Below are positions 24,627-40,218 of a DNA stretch of 64,000 nt, in pieces. The first letter of the stretch is position 1. Each line of letters begins with the position of its first letter. The stretch lies in NCBI GenBank assembly GCA_030681895.1, contig JAUXRI010000078.1:1-64000 (forward strand). Direction: 5' to 3'. The notes under the pieces were generated by a model. That model worked only from the letters and a program-made list of their open reading frames with translations, was not told the origin of the DNA and made no database searches. The position numbers and the translations under genes are program-made. Source of the DNA: Myxococcales bacterium. Its GTDB lineage: Bacteria > Myxococcota > Myxococcia > Myxococcales > Myxococcaceae.

Positions 24627-26072
24627 TCAGCGAACCGAGCGGCGTCGCAGGCTCAACAGCCCGAGGAGCGAGATCAGCGAGAGGCCACCGAGGCTGCTGC
24701 AGCCGGTCTGCGCGACAGGTCCGGCGATCGACGCCTTCGGGAGCAGGATCTGCGGCTTGGGCGGCTCCTGGCAGAAGCGGAATCCGTTCCACCCGTTGGC
24801 GCACGCGTAGTTCGCCGGGCAGTCGCCCATGTTGCGGCAGGTGAGCTGGCAGATCGAGTCGCCTTCGGTCGCGCCGGTGCACACCGTGTCCATGCCGCAG
24901 TAGTTCTGGCCGATGCGGCAGAACGCTCCGGCGCCGAGCACCGGCAACTGCTTCTTGATGCAGAAGCCGCCCGTGCACTCGAAGCCCGTCGCGCAGTCGG
25001 TGGGCGCCGTGCAGGCCCGCGTGCAGTACGGCTGCAGGTTCTGTGGATCGTTGCGGCACTCGCGGTTGATGCACTGGGTCGCCATGGTGCAGGCCTGGCC
25101 CTCGGTGATGCAGTCAGGGTCGGGGTCGCCGCAGGTCGTCGTCGCGCACAGGCCGTTGGGGCCGCAGTCGGGACAGTCGGGGTCGACGCCGCCCTGGAGC
25201 ATCAGGCACACCGAGCTGCAGATGTTGTCCTTCGCGCAGACGCAGTCGAAGTCGGGCATCGCGCAGTTGGTGGCGCAGCGGCCGTCGCGATCGCACGACG
25301 GCGCTTCGTACATCGACAGGTACATCTGCACGAACGAGGTGAACGCGTCGACGCGGGTGTCAGCGCCGTAGGTGCAGGTCTGTGAGGTGGTGAAGCTGTG
25401 CACGCCGACCTGCCGCTCGACGCCATCGGGGAACGTGTAGAAGGTCGGGCCGCCGGAGTCGCCCTGGCAGATGCCCTTCGACTGGTTGTCGCCCATGAAG
25501 ATGAGCTGGGAGGTGAGCTGCGCGACCGTCAGCGCGACCTGCCGCCGGGTGCCGCTGCCGTTCCCCGGAGTCGTATTCCCATAGCCGAGCGCCCGGAGCG
25601 GCCTGCCCTGCGTGCCCTGCATGGTCTGGTTGTTCCACGGCTTGGGGTTCACGTTCGTGGGCGCGCGCTCGAGGAGAATGATCGCGATGTCGTTGCGCAA
25701 GTCCTGACCGTTGGGGTTCCAGCCCGGGTGCGTGTTCCAGCGCAGCGCGCGGTAGGTGTTCGTGCCGAACTGAATCTGCGAGTCGACCGGGGCGTTGTGG
25801 GCCAACACGGAGCGGGCGCTGTCGACGCAGTGGGCCGCCGTGAGGAGCGTGCGCGAGCCGATGAGCGTGGCGCTGCAGATGCCCATCTGGCCGCTCGTCT
25901 CGGTCATGATCAGCTGAAAGACGTTGTTGTCCGTCGTGGGCGCGACGGTGCCACCGACGATGGCCCCGCGCTGCGAGTCGACGGGAGCACCTTCTGAGGA
26001 GGCCCCGTCTTCGAGCCCGCAACCGAGCAGGGCACCGACGACGAAGAGTGAAACGGAGAGACGAAGGTTCAT
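24627..26072 (-). CDS. Secreted trypsin-like serine protease with Cys-rich region and MYXO-CTERM-like tail
   Basis: 481 residues. The ATG at 26072 overlaps the upstream protease stop as ATGA. Lipobox-like GALLGC at 15-20. The peptidase S1 domain starts after an IVGGT activation site, with triad residues in LLTAAHC, NDIAIILL and GDSGGP. A Cys-rich region follows (spaced C-x-C pairs such as CDRDGRCATNC). The end is GCSSLGG, a hydrophobic helix and RRR, matching the MYXO-CTERM sorting pattern processed in myxobacteria. A surface-attached or released predatory or developmental protease is likely. It forms an operon with its paralogue upstream. Confidence 0.92.
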   Translation of the reverse strand: MNLRLSVSLFVVGALLGCGLEDGASSEGAPVDSQRGAIVGGTVAPTTDNNVFQLIMTETSGQMGICSATLIGSRTLLTAAHCVDSARSVLAHNAPVDSQIQFGTNTYRALRWNTHPGWNPNGQDLRNDIAIILLERAPTNVNPKPWNNQTMQGTQGRPLRALGYGNTTPGNGSGTRRQVALTVAQLTSQLIFMGDNQSKGICQGDSGGPTFYTFPDGVERQVGVHSFTTSQTCTYGADTRVDAFTSFVQMYLSMYEAPSCDRDGRCATNCAMPDFDCVCAKDNICSSVCLMLQGGVDPDCPDCGPNGLCATTTCGDPDPDCITEGQACTMATQCINRECRNDPQNLQPYCTRACTAPTDCATGFECTGGFCIKKQLPVLGAGAFCRIGQNYCGMDTVCTGATEGDSICQLTCRNMGDCPANYACANGWNGFRFCQEPPKPQILLPKASIAGPVAQTGCSSLGGLSLISLLGLLSLRRRSVR

Positions 26073-27511
26073 GGAGAGACCCGGCGACGACGGAACACCG
26101 GGACCATCAGCACGAGCGCCGCCAACAGTCCACCGGGTGCTGACGAGCAGCCCTTCGCGACCACGCCGAGACTGGGCTGCACGCCGGTCAGAATCTTCGG
26201 CTTGAAGTCGATGTTGAAGGGCCGGCAATACCGCCCGCCCATCGTGCCGCCTTCACACGCGGAGCCGTCGCCGCAGTCGGCCGTCACGCTGCACGGAGTC
26301 ACACAGCGCGTGATGCCGTTCTGCGGGCCGTTGCAGGTGCTGGTGACGCAGAAGTCGAGCAGGGCGGTGCACGAGTCGAGGAGACGGCGCTCCGGGCGCA
26401 GGGGAATGCGGCACGCGCCGTCGTTGCACTCCATCGACGCGGGGCAATCGGTCTTCTGCGCGCACGGGCGGCTGCAGTACGTGTCGGTGTTCTGCGAGTC
26501 GTTCACGCACGTGCGGCCCCGGCACTGGGTCGCGGCCGAGCAGAGCCCGCCTTCGTTGACGCAGTCGGGGTCCGGGCGAGGGCACTCGTTGATGGAGCAG
26601 ATCGCGTTGGTGCCGCAGTCCTTCGGGCAGTCGGTGTCGGTCGAGAGATCGATGCACTCGGCGGTGCACTGGCCATCGGTCGCGCAGGCACAGTCCTGAT
26701 CGACGACCGCGCAGCCCGGCTTGCACAACCCGTCGAGCTCGCAGGTCGGCTCTTCCCATCGGCCCATCGTCTGGCGAATCCACGGGAGCTGGGTATCGAC
26801 GCGCATGTCGACGCCGAACTGCTGGCAGCCCTGATCGCCGTAGCTCACGACGCCGATGAGCCGCTCCGAGGTCTCTCCCGGGAACACCATGAAGCCTGGC
26901 CCTCCGGAGTCGCCCTGGCACGTCTGCTTGCCCATGCCGCCGGACTCGAAGCTGGTGGACATGATGCGGCGGAGCGGGGTGCTGACCTCTCGTTTGGTGC
27001 CGCCGCCGCTCTGGGTCGTGCCGTCCGTCACGCCGAAGCCCGAGTGACGGACCTGAATACCAAGGAGCGAGCTCACCATCGGCGAGTCGTTCAAGCGGAG
27101 GACCGGGACCGTGGTGACGGCGCGCTCGAGCTGCAGCAGGCCGAAGTCGTTGCTCTGACCCGAGTACATCGGGTGGCGCGTCTGGCCCACCACCCGGACG
27201 ACCGAGGTCGGGCTCGCCGCGTAGGTACCGAACGCGACGGAGTAGGGCGCGTTCTGCCCCTGGGCGTAGATGCAGTGGGCCGCCGTCAGCACGGTCTTGG
27301 GCCCGATGAGGGAGCCGGTGCAATAGCTCGAGTAGCGGCCGCCGAAGCCGACCACGAGCGCGACGACCGCCGGGTCGCCCGTCGCCACGGTGCCGCCGAT
27401 GATCTGCTGGGATTGTTGCTCGGCGGCTTCAGCGCCTGAGAGGTCGACCTGGCCGCATGCACTCCCGAAGACGGCGCCGGCCAACACCGTGGAGAGGACT
27501 CGAGCCTTCAT
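26069..27511 (-). CDS. Secreted trypsin-like serine protease with MYXO-CTERM-like tail (first of pair)
   Basis: 480 residues, start ATG 27511. N-terminal export signal ending FGSAC, possibly lipidated. Activation site QIIGGTV, triad residues in LTAAHC, NDFGLLQL and QGDSGGP. The Cys-rich middle is closely paralogous to the downstream protein (CELDGLCKPGCAVVDQDCAC here). The tail is KGCSSAPGG, a hydrophobic helix and RRRR. Both genes share the same order of modules, so this is a tandem duplication. Proteolysis of prey, matrix or propeptides is inferred from the family and from its myxobacterial setting. Confidence 0.92.
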   Translation of the reverse strand: MKARVLSTVLAGAVFGSACGQVDLSGAEAAEQQSQQIIGGTVATGDPAVVALVVGFGGRYSSYCTGSLIGPKTVLTAAHCIYAQGQNAPYSVAFGTYAASPTSVVRVVGQTRHPMYSGQSNDFGLLQLERAVTTVPVLRLNDSPMVSSLLGIQVRHSGFGVTDGTTQSGGGTKREVSTPLRRIMSTSFESGGMGKQTCQGDSGGPGFMVFPGETSERLIGVVSYGDQGCQQFGVDMRVDTQLPWIRQTMGRWEEPTCELDGLCKPGCAVVDQDCACATDGQCTAECIDLSTDTDCPKDCGTNAICSINECPRPDPDCVNEGGLCSAATQCRGRTCVNDSQNTDTYCSRPCAQKTDCPASMECNDGACRIPLRPERRLLDSCTALLDFCVTSTCNGPQNGITRCVTPCSVTADCGDGSACEGGTMGGRYCRPFNIDFKPKILTGVQPSLGVVAKGCSSAPGGLLAALVLMVPVFRRRRVSP

Positions 27512-27767: not shown

Positions 27768-29036
27768 GTGACGACCCTCCTCAAAGGCGCCACGCTGATC
27801 GAGATCGAGCCGCCGTCGGTCGAGCGTGCTGACCTTCGCATCGACAAAGGCAAAATCGTCGCGCGCGGCGCATCGCTCGAGCCCCTTCCCTCCGAAGAGG
27901 TGACCGAGCTGAACGGTCGCCTGGTGATGCCGGGCCTGGTGAGCGCCCATCACCACCTTCATGCGGGGCTCGCGCGCGGCCTGCCGCGCGGCGTGGGGTT
28001 CACCGAGGGCCTGGCGTTGCTCGAGCAGATCGAAGGCGCGCTCAGCCTCGACGACGTGCAGGCGGCGGCCGCGGTTGGCGGGCTCGAAGGCCTGTGCGCG
28101 GGAACGACGACCGTGTTCGCGCTGCATGCGTCTCCGAAGGTGGTGCCGGGCTCGATGGGCCGGCTGGCGCACGGACTCAACGACACGGGCATCCGCGGTG
28201 TGCTCGCCTATGAGATCTCCGATCGCGCGGGGATCGTGAGCCGGGAAGAAGCGCTCGAAGAAGTCACGGGCTTCATCAGTCGGGCGCGCGGCCGGTTCCG
28301 TGGCGCCGTCGGGCTCGCACACCTCGGCCACACCTCCGACGAGGCGCTCGCTGCGGTGAAGGCGGTCGCGACCGGCAGCGGCGCGCTGAGTCTGATCAAC
28401 GTCGCCGAAGACCCGCGCGAAGAGACCCAGAGCCTCGAGCGCTTCGGTGCTGCTCCGCTCGAGCGGTTGTTCGCCAAGGAGCTCATTGGAGAGAAGACGG
28501 TCATCTCGCAGGCGGTGCACTTCTCGTGGCCGCAGCTGTCCGAGCTCCTGACACGAGGCGCGTGGGTGGTGCACGCGGGCCGAAGCAACATGAACGGGCA
28601 GACGGGCCTGGCGACGCCGTCGAAGTTCGGAGTCCGGGCGTGCCTCGGCACCGACGTGATGAGCCTCGACACGCTCGCCGAGGCGCAGGTGGCGTCGCTG
28701 CGAACCCGCGACGCTGGTCAGCCCATCGACATCCTCCGCTTCATCGCCAACGGCCATCGCCTCGCGTCGGCCGCCTTCGGCCAGACGATCGGTCCGCTGC
28801 GGGAAGACGCCGTCGCCGATCTCGTGGTGCTCGACTACCAGCCGCCGACGCCGCTCACCTCGGAGTCGCTGTCGTCGCACCTGCTCCACGGCATGGCCTC
28901 GCAGCACGTCGAGTCGGTGATGGTCGACGGCATGTGGCGGTTGTGGAAGCGCAAGCCGCTGTCGGTCGACGTCGCCGAGCTCGCGCGCACCAGCCGCGAA
29001 GCCGCCGCTGCGGTCTGGGCTCGCCTGCCTCGCTGA
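27768..29036 (+). CDS. ssnA: SsnA-like amidohydrolase (putative selenium-metabolism aminohydrolase)
   Basis: 422 residues. It reads as an amidohydrolase of the SsnA type: HHH metal motif at 61-63, HASPKVVPGS (120-129), EISDRAGI, GRSNMNG (271-277), LGTD (293-296), RDAG, and DYQPPTPL (356-363), an order and wording like my recollection of Escherichia coli SsnA. SsnA genes are linked to selenium-dependent enzymes, but the reaction is unknown. Two metal-binding His of the family appear replaced (Asn211 in LINVAED, Gln248 in VISQAVHFS). The stop is 45 bases before a candidate selenoprotein gene. No ribosome-binding site is visible at the GTG start. Confidence 0.75.
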   Translation: MTTLLKGATLIEIEPPSVERADLRIDKGKIVARGASLEPLPSEEVTELNGRLVMPGLVSAHHHLHAGLARGLPRGVGFTEGLALLEQIEGALSLDDVQAAAAVGGLEGLCAGTTTVFALHASPKVVPGSMGRLAHGLNDTGIRGVLAYEISDRAGIVSREEALEEVTGFISRARGRFRGAVGLAHLGHTSDEALAAVKAVATGSGALSLINVAEDPREETQSLERFGAAPLERLFAKELIGEKTVISQAVHFSWPQLSELLTRGAWVVHAGRSNMNGQTGLATPSKFGVRACLGTDVMSLDTLAEAQVASLRTRDAGQPIDILRFIANGHRLASAAFGQTIGPLREDAVADLVVLDYQPPTPLTSESLSSHLLHGMASQHVESVMVDGMWRLWKRKPLSVDVAELARTSREAAAAVWARLPR

Positions 29037-29081: not shown

Positions 29082-29603
29082 ATGTTGACCGTCGCGCTCC
29101 TCGTGCTCGCTGCGTCGCCCGTCGTCGGAGACGTGGCGCCTGACTTCACCGTCAAGGACGTCAACGGGCGCGAGCTGACGCTCTCGAAGCTGGTGGAGCG
29201 CGGCCCCGTGGTGGTGGCCTTCTTCCCCAAAGCGTTCACCCCTGGCTGAACCCGCGAGTTCACCGCGTACCGGGACCGGTATGCCGACATCGAGAAGAAC
29301 AACGGAACGGTGATCGCGGTGTCAGGCGATGACGGCGCCAACTCGATCAAGTTCAAGGAGAGCCTCAAGGCGCCGTTCCCCTTCGTGAGCGACCCCGACG
29401 GAGCGCTCATGAAGGCCTTCGACGTGAAGTACCCGCTCGTCACCATCGCCAAGCGGGTCTCGTTCGTGATCGGTGCGGGCCGGAAAGTGCTGGCGATTCA
29501 GGAGGGCAGCGACGCGATCGATCCCTCCGCCGCGGTGACGTCGTGCAGTCTCGAGAAGCCCCGAGGGCTCCAGTTCCTGGTGGGCTCGAAGGACGGCGGC
29601 TGA
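29082..29603 (+). CDS. Candidate selenocysteine-containing peroxiredoxin (Bcp/AhpC-TSA family), exported
   Basis: 173 residues if the in-frame TGA at 29247-29249 is read as selenocysteine (codon 56). Thioredoxin-fold peroxiredoxin: VAPDFTVKDVNGRELTLSKL, then FFPKAFTPG-U-TREF, where the stop sits exactly at the peroxidatic Cys of the PKxxTPGCT motif. The frame stays open and peroxiredoxin-like to 29603 (VIAVSGDD, PFPFVSDPDG, Cys155 as possible resolving Cys). A hydrophobic N-terminus (1-16) suggests export. It would reduce peroxides. Without Sec insertion the product would be a useless 55-residue peptide. A point mutation or sequencing error (TGC to TGA) is the main alternative. Confidence 0.82.
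29247..29249 (+). other. In-frame TGA, candidate selenocysteine codon
   Basis: This TGA occupies the position of the catalytic Cys codon of the peroxiredoxin, between Gly (GGC) and Thr (ACC). Codons on both sides are in one open frame coding for a complete peroxiredoxin. Confidence 0.82.
29250..29284 (+). promoter_or_regulatory. Candidate bacterial SECIS hairpin
   Basis: Right after the TGA, bases 29265-29272 pair with 29277-29284 in an uninterrupted 8-bp stem (one G-U) closed by a four-base loop GGAC (29273-29276). Twenty-three bases lie between the TGA and the loop, and the loop starts with GG. Both match what is known of bacterial SECIS elements (loop about 16-37 bases after the UGA, a G in the first loop positions), which recruit SelB with Sec-tRNA. 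Confidence 0.75.
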
Positions 29604-29717: not shown

Positions 29718-30818
29718 ATGAACGTGAAGGCGATTTCTCTCGGGGCCTTGATTGGCTTCATCCTGGCGACGGTCCCCTCGTGTGGAACTCCCGCCGGCAA
29801 CTGCGGCCCGAACAACTGCACGGGCTGCTGCAACGCTGGCACGTGTGTCGCGCCTGACAAGCTGACGGACGCGGCCTGCGGCAGCTCGGGCAACGCGTGT
29901 ACGAACTGTTCGGCGGCGAGCCAGACCTGCAACATGGGTACGAAGTCGTGCATCGGCTCGGTCGCCACGGGCGGCGGCACGTCGGGCACTGGCGGAGGCA
30001 CGTCGGGCACGGGCGGTGGCACGTCGAGCACGGGCGGCGGCACGTCGAGCACGGGCGGCGGGACTGCCGGTGGAACGATGGGCACCGGCGGCGGCGGCAT
30101 GTCGAGCCTGATGCCGTGCGACTACCTCGCGCCCAACTGCCCCGCTGGCACCGAGTGTGTGCTCAACGACATCAACGGCACCGCAGGCAGCTGCGTGCCG
30201 GGCGCGTGCAGCCTGATCAACCAGGACTGCATGACCGCCAACACCAAGTGCATCGTCGGGCCGCTCGCCGATGCCGGCATCGCCCGTCAGTGCACGCCGT
30301 TCGTGCTCGGCGATGGCGGCACGGTGGAAGGTGGCGCGTGCGTGCAGGCCATTTCAGACCCGTGCCAGAAGGGTTCGCAGTGCGTCGGCGTGAACGGTGG
30401 CGCGGCGACGTGCCGCCGATTCTGCAACCTGGTCTCGGGCTGCGGCCCCGGCTCCGAGTGCAACCTCGGCATTTCGTTCTCGGTCGTTCAGGGTGGCCAG
30501 TCTGAACTGCACCCGGTGTGCTCGGCCATCACGGCCTGCGACCCGTACACGCAGATGCCGTGCGCAGCGATGGAGGCCTGCCAGCTCTACCGTTCGGGCG
30601 CTCCGGCTGGCTGTCTGCCCTCGGGCACCGTCATGGGCGGCGGCCAGTGCAGTGCGATGAGCCTCTGCGCGCGTGGCTTCCAGTGCGTCGTCAGTGGCGC
30701 CGGCGGGGCGATGGGCAACTGCCGCGCCTTCTGCAACCTCGACGGTGGCGCTCCGGCCTGCACGGCGGGCATGTGCCAGAACCTGATGAACTCGGGGACC
30801 GGCGCCTGCTCGATGTGA
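29718..30818 (+). CDS. Cys-rich lipoprotein with Gly/Thr/Ser repeat linker
   Basis: 366 residues from ATG 29718, with GGAG six bases upstream. Lipobox-like ATVPSC around residue 22. Next is the Cys cluster NCGPNNCTGCCNAGTC, then four tandem GGGTS(G/S)T heptads (residues 85-112) as a flexible linker, then a Cys-rich domain of about 230 residues with spaced Cys pairs (CPAGTECVLND, CRRFCNLVSGCGPGSEC). The N-terminal cluster matches that of the 1003-residue protein at 14580, so the two share an envelope module. A 10-bp terminator follows. Role unknown. Confidence 0.82.
   Translation: MNVKAISLGALIGFILATVPSCGTPAGNCGPNNCTGCCNAGTCVAPDKLTDAACGSSGNACTNCSAASQTCNMGTKSCIGSVATGGGTSGTGGGTSGTGGGTSSTGGGTSSTGGGTAGGTMGTGGGGMSSLMPCDYLAPNCPAGTECVLNDINGTAGSCVPGACSLINQDCMTANTKCIVGPLADAGIARQCTPFVLGDGGTVEGGACVQAISDPCQKGSQCVGVNGGAATCRRFCNLVSGCGPGSECNLGISFSVVQGGQSELHPVCSAITACDPYTQMPCAAMEACQLYRSGAPAGCLPSGTVMGGGQCSAMSLCARGFQCVVSGAGGAMGNCRAFCNLDGGAPACTAGMCQNLMNSGTGACSM
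29970..30053 (+). repeat. Four tandem 21-bp coding repeats
   Basis: In-frame 21-base units encode GGGTSGT twice and GGGTSST twice, with a degenerate fifth copy after them. They form the linker of the Cys-rich lipoprotein and could expand or contract without frameshift. Confidence 0.85.
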
Positions 30819-38082: not shown

Positions 38083-40218
38083 CTACGCCTTTTCCACGCG
38101 GCACAGGCCAGATCGAAACGCCGGGAAGCCACTGATGGGGTCGCGTTTGTCGGGGCTGATGAGCCGGTTGGGGTTGGCGTCAGGAAAGCCCGCCGCCATC
38201 ACGGCGCACTCGCGCTGCACGTCGTTGGTCACCACGGCGGTCAGCTGAATGCTCCCATACGGAGACGTCACCTTCACGCGGGTGCCCGTCGCGATGCCGA
38301 GCGGCTGCGCCACGTCGGTGTGGATGATCACCTCGGCCGTGCGCATGCGCGCGTTCACGCTCGGCACCTCGTGAAACTGCGAGTTGATGTACGCGCGCGG
38401 CCGTGGCCCCGTGACGAGCCGGAGCGGGAACTCTGGCGTTGGTAGCTCCGTCGGCGGCGTCCACACCGGCAGGCCGGGGTGGCCTTCACGCTCGAGCAGC
38501 TGGCTCTTGAACTCGGCGCGGCCCGAGAGCGTCGCGAACTTCGGTTGTTCGACGGTGAGCGAGGGCTTCGGCTGTTGTTGCGGATCGCTCATCCACCGCA
38601 CGTGCTTCTGCTTCGAGGCCTCGAGCATCGTCGCCCATGGGAAATACTCTCCGAGGCCAAGCTTCTTCGAGAGCTCGACGAGCACCTTCCAGTCGGGCCA
38701 CGCCTCGTGCTGCGGCGTGACGAGGCTCTGCGCGGCGACGGTGTCAGCGTCGTCGACGTCGGGAGACTCGGCGAAGGTGGTCGCGGGCAACACGACGTCT
38801 GACCTGCGCGCTGACTCCGTGAAGAAGGGGTCGATGGTGACGAGCAGGTCGAGCTTCTCCGCCGCCTCCTCGAGCCGTTGCGTGCCCTGCGACGTCACCA
38901 GCGCGTTGCTCGCGAGCAGAATGACGGCCCGAATCGGGTAGGGCGTGTCGCGCAACACCGCGTCGGCGAGCAATTGTCCCTGCGCCTCGCGGTTGTACAT
39001 CTCGTACAGCGGGTAGATGTCCCGGCCGAGCGCGCGGGCCTTCACGGGCGGCGGGACGGGCTCCGGCGTGGCGAGATCGTAGAACGCCGGGAGCATCTCG
39101 TCCTTGAAGCGCGCGCCTGGCGGCGTGAGCACCGAGCGGGGCTCCTGAGTGCCGTCGAAGCGGCCGATCAACACCTCGAGCGAGCTGATCGCGCGGAGCG
39201 TCTGCACGCCGTTCTCGTGATGTTCGACGCCCAGGCCAGCCCAGACACCGGTCGGCCCTTCCTGCGCCATCAGCCGTGCGATGCGCTCCACGTCGAGCGC
39301 GGGGACGCCGGTGATCCGTTCGACCTCGGGCGGCGTGTACGTGCTCGCGAGCGCGCGCAGCTCCTCGAGGCCCAGCGTGTTCGCCTCCATGAAGGTGCGG
39401 TCGAACCAGCCGTTCTCGATCACCACCCGAATGAGGCCGAGCGCGAGCGCGCCGTCGGTGCCGGGCCGAACGGGGACCCACATCGTCGCTTCGCGCGCGA
39501 GCCCCGTCTTCACCGGGTCGATGACGATCAGGTTGCCGCCGTCGGCCTTCTTCGCGACGACGTGGAGGAACGGTGGCGCCGTCACGCCCGGGTTCGAGCC
39601 CCACAGCACCATCGTCTTCGCGCGGCGAATGTCCGACGAGTACTTGCTGCCGACCGTGAGCGCCTGCCCCATGCGCAGCGAGGCTTCACAGAGGCTGGCG
39701 ACGCTCGAGACGTTGGGAGAGCCGAACGCGCGGGCGAAGCGATGCAGCCAGTTCACCAGCGGGTGCCGCACCATCGGCCAGCCGGTCTGAATGAGGAGCG
39801 CCTCGGGCCCGTGCTTCGCCTTCACTGCCTGCAGCCGCGTCGCGATCTCGGTGAGCGCCTCGTCCCACGAGACCTCGTGAAACGCGTCGCCCTTGCGCAC
39901 CATCGGGTGCTTCAGCCGCGCGCCGCTGTGCACCATCTCTCGCAGCGCGAAGCCGTGCTCGCAGAGGAAGCCCTTGGTGCGTGAGGTGAGATCGCCTTCG
40001 ACCTTCTCGAGCCGCGCGCCGCGCGTGTGCCCGATGATCCCGCAGTGCATGAGGCAGAAGCGACAGGTGCCCTTCGTGCTCGCGAGCGCTTCCGTCGACA
40101 GGCCTCCCGCGACGAGCACGCCCGCTCCAGCGAGCGCGGCGCCGATCGGAGCAGCCTTCATCACATCGCGCCGGGTGAACTTCTTCCGAACGACGGTGTT
40201 GAGGGGCGGGCGACTCAT
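38083..40218 (-). CDS. Tat-exported molybdopterin oxidoreductase catalytic subunit
   Basis: 711 residues from ATG 40218, overlapping the upstream ferredoxin stop as ATGA. Twin-arginine signal (FTRRDVMK, RR 16-17) with hydrophobic core. An N-terminal [4Fe-4S] site uses Cys52, 55, 59 and 86; the Mo ligand is Cys177 in SLCEAS. The bis-MGD folds follow (VLWGSNPGV, VIDPVKTGLA, and C-terminal TGPRPRAYINSQ). CISM-family periplasmic reductases or dehydrogenases share this layout. I cannot tell nitrate, polysulfide, arsenate or other substrate from sequence alone. It works with the two subunits encoded upstream. Confidence 0.9.
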   Translation of the reverse strand: MSRPPLNTVVRKKFTRRDVMKAAPIGAALAGAGVLVAGGLSTEALASTKGTCRFCLMHCGIIGHTRGARLEKVEGDLTSRTKGFLCEHGFALREMVHSGARLKHPMVRKGDAFHEVSWDEALTEIATRLQAVKAKHGPEALLIQTGWPMVRHPLVNWLHRFARAFGSPNVSSVASLCEASLRMGQALTVGSKYSSDIRRAKTMVLWGSNPGVTAPPFLHVVAKKADGGNLIVIDPVKTGLAREATMWVPVRPGTDGALALGLIRVVIENGWFDRTFMEANTLGLEELRALASTYTPPEVERITGVPALDVERIARLMAQEGPTGVWAGLGVEHHENGVQTLRAISSLEVLIGRFDGTQEPRSVLTPPGARFKDEMLPAFYDLATPEPVPPPVKARALGRDIYPLYEMYNREAQGQLLADAVLRDTPYPIRAVILLASNALVTSQGTQRLEEAAEKLDLLVTIDPFFTESARRSDVVLPATTFAESPDVDDADTVAAQSLVTPQHEAWPDWKVLVELSKKLGLGEYFPWATMLEASKQKHVRWMSDPQQQPKPSLTVEQPKFATLSGRAEFKSQLLEREGHPGLPVWTPPTELPTPEFPLRLVTGPRPRAYINSQFHEVPSVNARMRTAEVIIHTDVAQPLGIATGTRVKVTSPYGSIQLTAVVTNDVQRECAVMAAGFPDANPNRLISPDKRDPISGFPAFRSGLCRVEKA

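Follow-up and report, generated by a model that had tools for sequence, protein, structure and literature searches.

A predicted selenocysteine-containing peroxiredoxin of Myxococcales and its exchange with cysteine forms among relatives

A peroxiredoxin gene of a Myxococcales bacterium carries a TGA triplet in place of its peroxidatic cysteine codon, which raises the question of whether the gene is broken or encodes a protein with selenocysteine (Sec) at its active site. We analyzed the gene within a stretch of 64,000 nucleotides (the window; positions 1 to 64,000 of contig JAUXRI010000078.1, assembly GCA_030681895.1). The first-pass annotation had placed the stop exactly at the catalytic cysteine and had described the open frame on both sides as one complete peroxiredoxin, and both statements hold. 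Between the ATG at 29082 and the terminator at 29601, the frame contains just one stop, the TGA at 29247-29249, in the local context ...FFPKAFTPG-[TGA]-TREF... The read-through product matches the AhpC-TSA domain model PF00578 over residues 15-136 (E=1.7e-31; 109.2 bits against a cut-off of 26), and its T-x-x-U motif is T53-P-G-U56. An AlphaFold2 model of the protein has a mean pLDDT of 85.5, and the PDB list returned by Foldseek for this model was headed by the BCP-type peroxiredoxins 5epf and 3drn, which were also the nearest solved structures in a sequence search. Mechanical ORF calling split the gene into ORFs of 64 and 97 aa, the kind of breakage that had been anticipated for ordinary annotation. 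The coordinates of the locus are collected in Table 1; the hairpin, the hydrophobic leader, the second conserved cysteine and the conserved neighbor listed there go beyond the first-pass annotation.

Table 1. Features of the peroxiredoxin locus, in window coordinates.
Feature	Position	Strand	Remarks
SsnA-like amidohydrolase gene	27768..29036	+	Ends 45 bases upstream of the peroxiredoxin gene
Predicted Sec-containing peroxiredoxin gene	29082..29603	+	173 residues, one internal TGA read through
Hydrophobic leader	29082..29129	+	MLTVALLVLAASPVVG; possible export signal or anchor
Putative selenocysteine codon TGA (codon/residue 56)	29247-29249	+	Peroxidatic position in TPG-U-T; TGA, TGC or TGT in 116/116 fetched copies
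SECIS-like hairpin	29265..29284	+	GCGTACCG, loop GGAC, CGGTATGC; 8-pair stem from 15 bases past the TGA
Second conserved Cys codon (residue 155)	29544..29546	+	Candidate resolving partner of residue 56
True stop TGA (codon 174)	29601-29603	+	From the frame reading of the peroxiredoxin gene

Relatives of the gene were sought in 145 genomes of the order, with matches in 116, and 116 copies from 113 genomes were fetched; 28 rows with weaker scores (partial matches at E 1.8e-24 or worse, free of in-frame stops) were taken as Cys paralogues and left out of this set. Aligned with these myxobacterial genes, as the first-pass annotation had suggested, codon 56 was TGA in 55 copies, TGC in 57 and TGT in 4, and no other codon occurred, a restriction well past anything that chance would produce. 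Among named loci, comprising the best 80 of 143 relatives and overlapping the 116-copy set, the corresponding counts were 48, 30 and 2. The nearest relative found (G135), whose record describes it as an Archangium sp. MAG, encodes a 94% identical protein with the same TGA. Another genome of the order (G014) holds a TGA copy, and so do the isolates Archangium violaceum Cb vi76 and Pyxidicoccus fallax DSM 14698; cysteine is encoded at this position by TGC in Myxococcus xanthus AM003 and by TGT in Archangium lansinium. The source assembly is fragmented (9.8 Mb in 352 contigs, 87.85% complete, 5.6% contamination), and a pseudogene, or a sequencing or assembly error that turned TGC into TGA, might be suspected on that ground. 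This explanation is contradicted by the many copies with the same TGA, by the conserved C-terminal half of the gene and by the lack of any other in-frame stop in it. Since the TGA recurs in independent genomes, isolates among them, sequencing error is excluded, and we assign the pseudogene or error explanation as a whole a negligible probability.

Apparent extra stops in some copies (2 TGA, TAG, TAA) were judged from the translated proteins listed and taken as terminal stops that close the aligned stretch; codon 56 itself is TGA or TGC in these copies. One record, labelled Comamonas sp. KCTC 72670, holds a copy that is Myxococcus-like (L173), and either its label is probably wrong or its assembly mixed.

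A TGA can be decoded as Sec where the dedicated machinery is present, and a search of the same genome for selA, selB, selC (tRNA-Sec) and selD had been named as the check. All four were found above their cut-offs: selA at 571 bits (cut-off 268), selB at 325 bits (cut-off 242), selD at 386 bits (cut-off 125) and tRNA-Sec at 72.3 bits (gathering score 47), with the anticodon TCA assigned by ARAGORN. In 14 control genomes, the tRNA-Sec model exceeded its cut-off in 5, selA in 1, and selB and selD in 2 each; the tRNA-Sec model by itself is not fully specific. Within the order, selA exceeded its cut-off in 52/54 genomes that hold a Sec copy and 58/61 that hold a Cys copy, so that its presence does not separate the two forms there. 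One genome with a Cys copy, rated 100% complete (G077), has neither selA over the cut-off nor tRNA-Sec. The tRNA-Sec model exceeded its cut-off in 46/54 Sec genomes; three of these matches (G010, G023 and G025) score 48-50 bits and may be tRNA-Ser, and strong matches were therefore counted as 43/54. Several of the Sec genomes without a strong match are incomplete assemblies. Formate dehydrogenase was searched for a further selenoprotein, and the lone FdhA over the cut-off in the source genome has no in-frame stop. A separate relative of the formate dehydrogenase alpha subunit, at 38104-40068 on the minus strand of the window, scores 295 bits, below the model cut-off, and also lacks an in-frame stop.

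An alternative is that Cys or Trp is inserted at the UGA without selenium, through read-through or a suppressor tRNA. Sister genes encode Cys at this position, and two nearly complete genomes of family f2 (G003, 97%, and G010, 98%) combine a TGA copy and selA with no strong tRNA-Sec; in a laxer tRNA-Sec search of G003, ARAGORN called tRNA-Ser or tRNA-Arg at the two loci examined. Against decoding without selenium stand the Sec machinery of the source genome and the gene's own terminator, which is itself TGA. A set of 23 more distant genomes (22 acidobacterial and one recorded as Polyangium) gives a sharper test than the order itself and also speaks against it: selA was found in 21/21 genomes with TGA (20 over the cut-off, and G162 in two frames), whereas it exceeded the cut-off in 0/2 genomes with TGC. 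In G162, the genome of locus L213, the two frames of selA reflect either an error or a real frameshift.

The RNA that follows the TGA bears on the same choice. The hairpin in Table 1 fits the description of a bacterial SECIS element, lying directly after the UGA with a G in a small apical loop, and may serve as one. Families f1 (that of the window gene) and f3 account for 48 of the 55 Sec rows (36 distinct); in these, 97.6% of 288 stem cells are paired, and pairing falls to 14-38% when one strand is shifted by 1 to 3 columns. Among the Cys copies (53 distinct in 61 rows), many of which have a decayed stem, 61.3% of 424 cells are paired, a share that shifting brings down to 18-37%. Adding the 7 distant Sec copies, which lack this hairpin, brings the total to 55 and the pairing to 89.3%. 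A change from A-U to U-A on both strands is present in 3 distinct rows of the f1 and f3 Sec copies. The 14 Sec copies of Acidobacteriota have a different hairpin in the same place, 96.9% paired (the first being GGATATCA-GGC-TGATATCC), in which one pair divides the 12 distinct rows evenly, being C-G in 6 and U-A in the other 6. For the myxobacterial and the acidobacterial sets alike, no shuffle (0/500) reached the observed count of cells with changes on both sides, nor the observed covariation score. The number of pairs changed on both sides, one per set, was not above shuffles (169/500 for f1 and f3, 352/500 for Acidobacteriota).

Part of this pairing has a source in the protein. The peptide encoded by the stem, AYRDRYA, is palindromic, and codon usage alone would give it 6.7/8 pairs, so that a good part of the stem pairing follows from the protein. 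Among hairpins that encode AYRDRYA, all 8 pairs form in 5/7 distinct Sec sequences, which are related to one another (expected 11%), and in 2/10 distinct Cys sequences. This synonymous-codon test for selection at the RNA level is weak, again because of the palindromic peptide. A test of independent pairs for association between Sec and the hairpin (6 pairs) was not significant, a two-part hairpin considered for the distant f2-like copies found no support (238/500 shuffles), and the fold of the window's own 61-base stretch, taken as a single sequence, was ordinary (z -1.46; 16/200 shuffles as good). An Rfam scan of the whole window at gathering thresholds gave no match. The stem is nonetheless more intact in TGA than in Cys copies, which argues further against decoding without selenium, and we judge that alternative very improbable. 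The machinery, the codon in relatives and the SECIS-like hairpin together strongly support the proposal of the first-pass annotation that this is a candidate selenoprotein. As read from its sequence, the window gene very probably encodes a selenoperoxiredoxin with Sec at residue 56. The rise in peroxidase reactivity that had been predicted from the substitution is plausible on chemical grounds.

The history of codon 56 was followed on a tree of 144 rows built by a quick maximum-likelihood method. It requires at least 14 changes between Sec and Cys, of which 7 are forced by starred branches, which deserve less trust in this quick method; a count on 108 rows from f1 and f3 gave 9 changes. Such counts are blind to the direction of change, whether gain or loss of Sec. 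As reconstructed, the branch has switched repeatedly between the two residues. Among the 60 Cys copies of f1 and f3, the stem retains all 8 pairs in 6 and 7 pairs in another 6. These near-intact stems fit a recent loss of Sec, an argument weakened by the palindromic peptide. Two genomes (G045 and G048) hold both forms (L061 and L064 versus L103 and L105); in each, the Cys copy adjoins an amidohydrolase gene, and the Sec copy has no amidohydrolase in the ~500 bases upstream.

The amidohydrolase gene that precedes the window gene is a regular neighbor within its family. It lies upstream in 77/85 copies of f1 (27/32 Sec and 50/53 Cys), and one of the 8 copies without it (L107) is at a contig start. 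The best models for the product of 27768-29036 are those of SsnA, at 268 and 263 bits, far below their cut-offs; the match to TIGR03314 (SsnA) is full length at 263.2 bits and falls short of the cut-off of 455.5, so the protein is SsnA-like rather than SsnA. No amidohydrolase was found within ~500 bases upstream of the f2, f3 and f6 copies, nor did a Pfam scan of 10 selected ORFs at four loci outside f1 (A. oryzae L190, A. violaceum L162, and Bryobacterales L206 and L215) reveal a shared neighbor. Since the amidohydrolase accompanies Cys copies too, that of G077 among them, its link seems to be to the peroxiredoxin and not to selenium as such. On its other side, the peroxiredoxin gene is directly followed by a gene for a cysteine-rich protein with GGGTSGTGGG repeats (29718-30818, plus strand), for which a Pfam scan gave no match. 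Farther upstream, at 24627-27511 on the minus strand, two adjoining genes resemble secreted trypsin-like proteases with cysteine-rich tails; a Pfam scan of one of the pair (26072-27511) found PF00089. Their C-terminal end, GCSS...RRR, resembles a myxobacterial sorting signal.

Where the peroxiredoxin acts depends on the reading of its N terminus. Ahead of the domain, 112/116 copies (counted with start codons assigned by script) have a hydrophobic leader, and from this leader we consider export from the cytoplasm somewhat probable. By eye, the paralogues of the source genome (L002-L004) start at the domain without a leader, and a thioredoxin-like protein of the same genome (L005) has the same short type of leader. 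Signal-like sequences appear also in the acidobacterial relatives: an S/T-R-R motif of the Tat-like kind was seen by eye in 10/24 distant copies (a regular expression gave 11, of which L219 was dropped), including all 8/8 loci of Bryobacterales, and several further distant copies have signal-like sequences by eye. All of these observations count against an ordinary cytosolic Sec peroxiredoxin whose leader is a mere hydrophobic N-terminal stretch with no export signal. That reading draws on the absence of any Lys or Arg from 88/116 leaders, which is atypical of signal peptides, on the start codons having been chosen by script, and on two copies (L104 and L112) that lack the hydrophobic leader. 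We regard a cytosolic enzyme as possible, if rather doubtful, and favor export in what follows.

A second cysteine, Cys155, is invariant in 59 aligned rows and present in 114/116 copies, missing only from L139, at a contig end, and from L140, which is distant. The gene, the codon, the decoding machinery, the hairpin and the evolutionary exchange with Cys are observed directly here, and from them we infer Sec in the protein, peroxidase activity, the role of Cys155 and export, in the following mechanism. In the mRNA, the hairpin after the UGA at codon 56 would be recognized by SelB carrying Sec-tRNA(UCA), so that Sec would become the peroxidatic residue; translation would still terminate at the UGA of codon 174. 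As a peroxidase, the protein would attack peroxide with its selenolate to give a selenenic acid. Cys155, near the C terminus, would most likely resolve this acid to a selenylsulphide, which an external thiol-disulphide donor would then reduce. The protein would probably be active outside the cytoplasm, brought there by its hydrophobic leader.

Two exported or selenium-containing enzymes offer partial comparisons. A peroxiredoxin of the Caulobacter cell envelope, reportedly reduced through ScsB, resembles the window protein, as predicted, in being exported, and differs in being a Cys enzyme. The PrxU of Eubacterium acidaminophilum, reportedly described by Sohling in 2001, is said to contain Sec. 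PrxU (NCBIfam NF040737) is a Sec-containing peroxiredoxin, as the window protein is predicted to be, but the latter scores 33.2 bits against its cut-off of 270 and belongs to a different branch of the superfamily. The BCP/PrxQ and AhpE peroxiredoxins (PDB 5epf, 3drn and 1xxu) are among its best matches in sequence and fold; the matched domain of these structures begins at chain residue 4 to 11, and the BCP-type 5epf aligns a Cys at the active site, in contrast to the predicted Sec of the window protein. The protein also stays under the PrxQ/BCP cut-offs, with 64.9 of 140 bits for PRK09437 (NF006960) and 57.5 of 260 for PrxQ (NF053650).

The closest correspondence is with the TxxU peroxiredoxins (PF00578/COG1225), which passages of four papers treat as an established bacterial selenoprotein family (PMC1088965, PMC1794560, PMC9312934, PMC13188914); Anaeromyxobacter dehalogenans is tabled in the same literature with 3 TxxU peroxiredoxin genes. 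As described in these passages, the family shares with the window gene the AhpC/TSA domain, Sec in T-x-x-U and a small-loop hairpin with a G just after the UGA; in the window gene, we found this domain, a TGA aligned with Cys, a SECIS-like hairpin and, in its genome, Sec-decoding genes. Because it answers the TxxU description and neither the PrxU nor the PrxQ/BCP equivalogs, we assign it to the known TxxU kind. A difference is that the selenoprotein-rich organisms tabled in the cited papers are mostly anaerobes. The leader, the second C-terminal Cys and the amidohydrolase neighbor go unmentioned in the passages on the TxxU family, and the main text of the 2026 review (PMC13188914) contains none of the terms 'myxo', 'acidobacteriota', 'periplasm' or 'signal peptide'. 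Among the open-licence papers listed, as judged by titles and abstract beginnings, we found no description of the branch in Myxococcaceae, and there we met no account of its second Cys, its gene neighbor or its probable export.

We tentatively propose, as a composite picture that falls a little short of probable, an unnamed subfamily of extracytoplasmic selenoperoxiredoxins in Myxococcota and Acidobacteriota. Its members would be exported with Sec already in place (in Bryobacterales through Tat, folded) and resolved by a dedicated C-terminal Cys. In Myxococcota, the SECIS element would force the palindromic AYRDRYA, which would drift after reversion to Cys, and in the family of the window gene, an SsnA-like amidohydrolase would be the partner.

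Because ORF calling splits the gene, annotation of myxobacterial and acidobacterial genomes can miss an antioxidant enzyme that is probably functional. In this family, a single enzyme comes in Sec and Cys forms that are closely related, and cultured relatives carry some of them; with such pairs at hand, and with selA mostly kept alongside both forms, the question of why evolution keeps or drops Sec becomes directly testable. If the predicted export is true, this would be a selenium enzyme guarding the cell envelope against peroxide.
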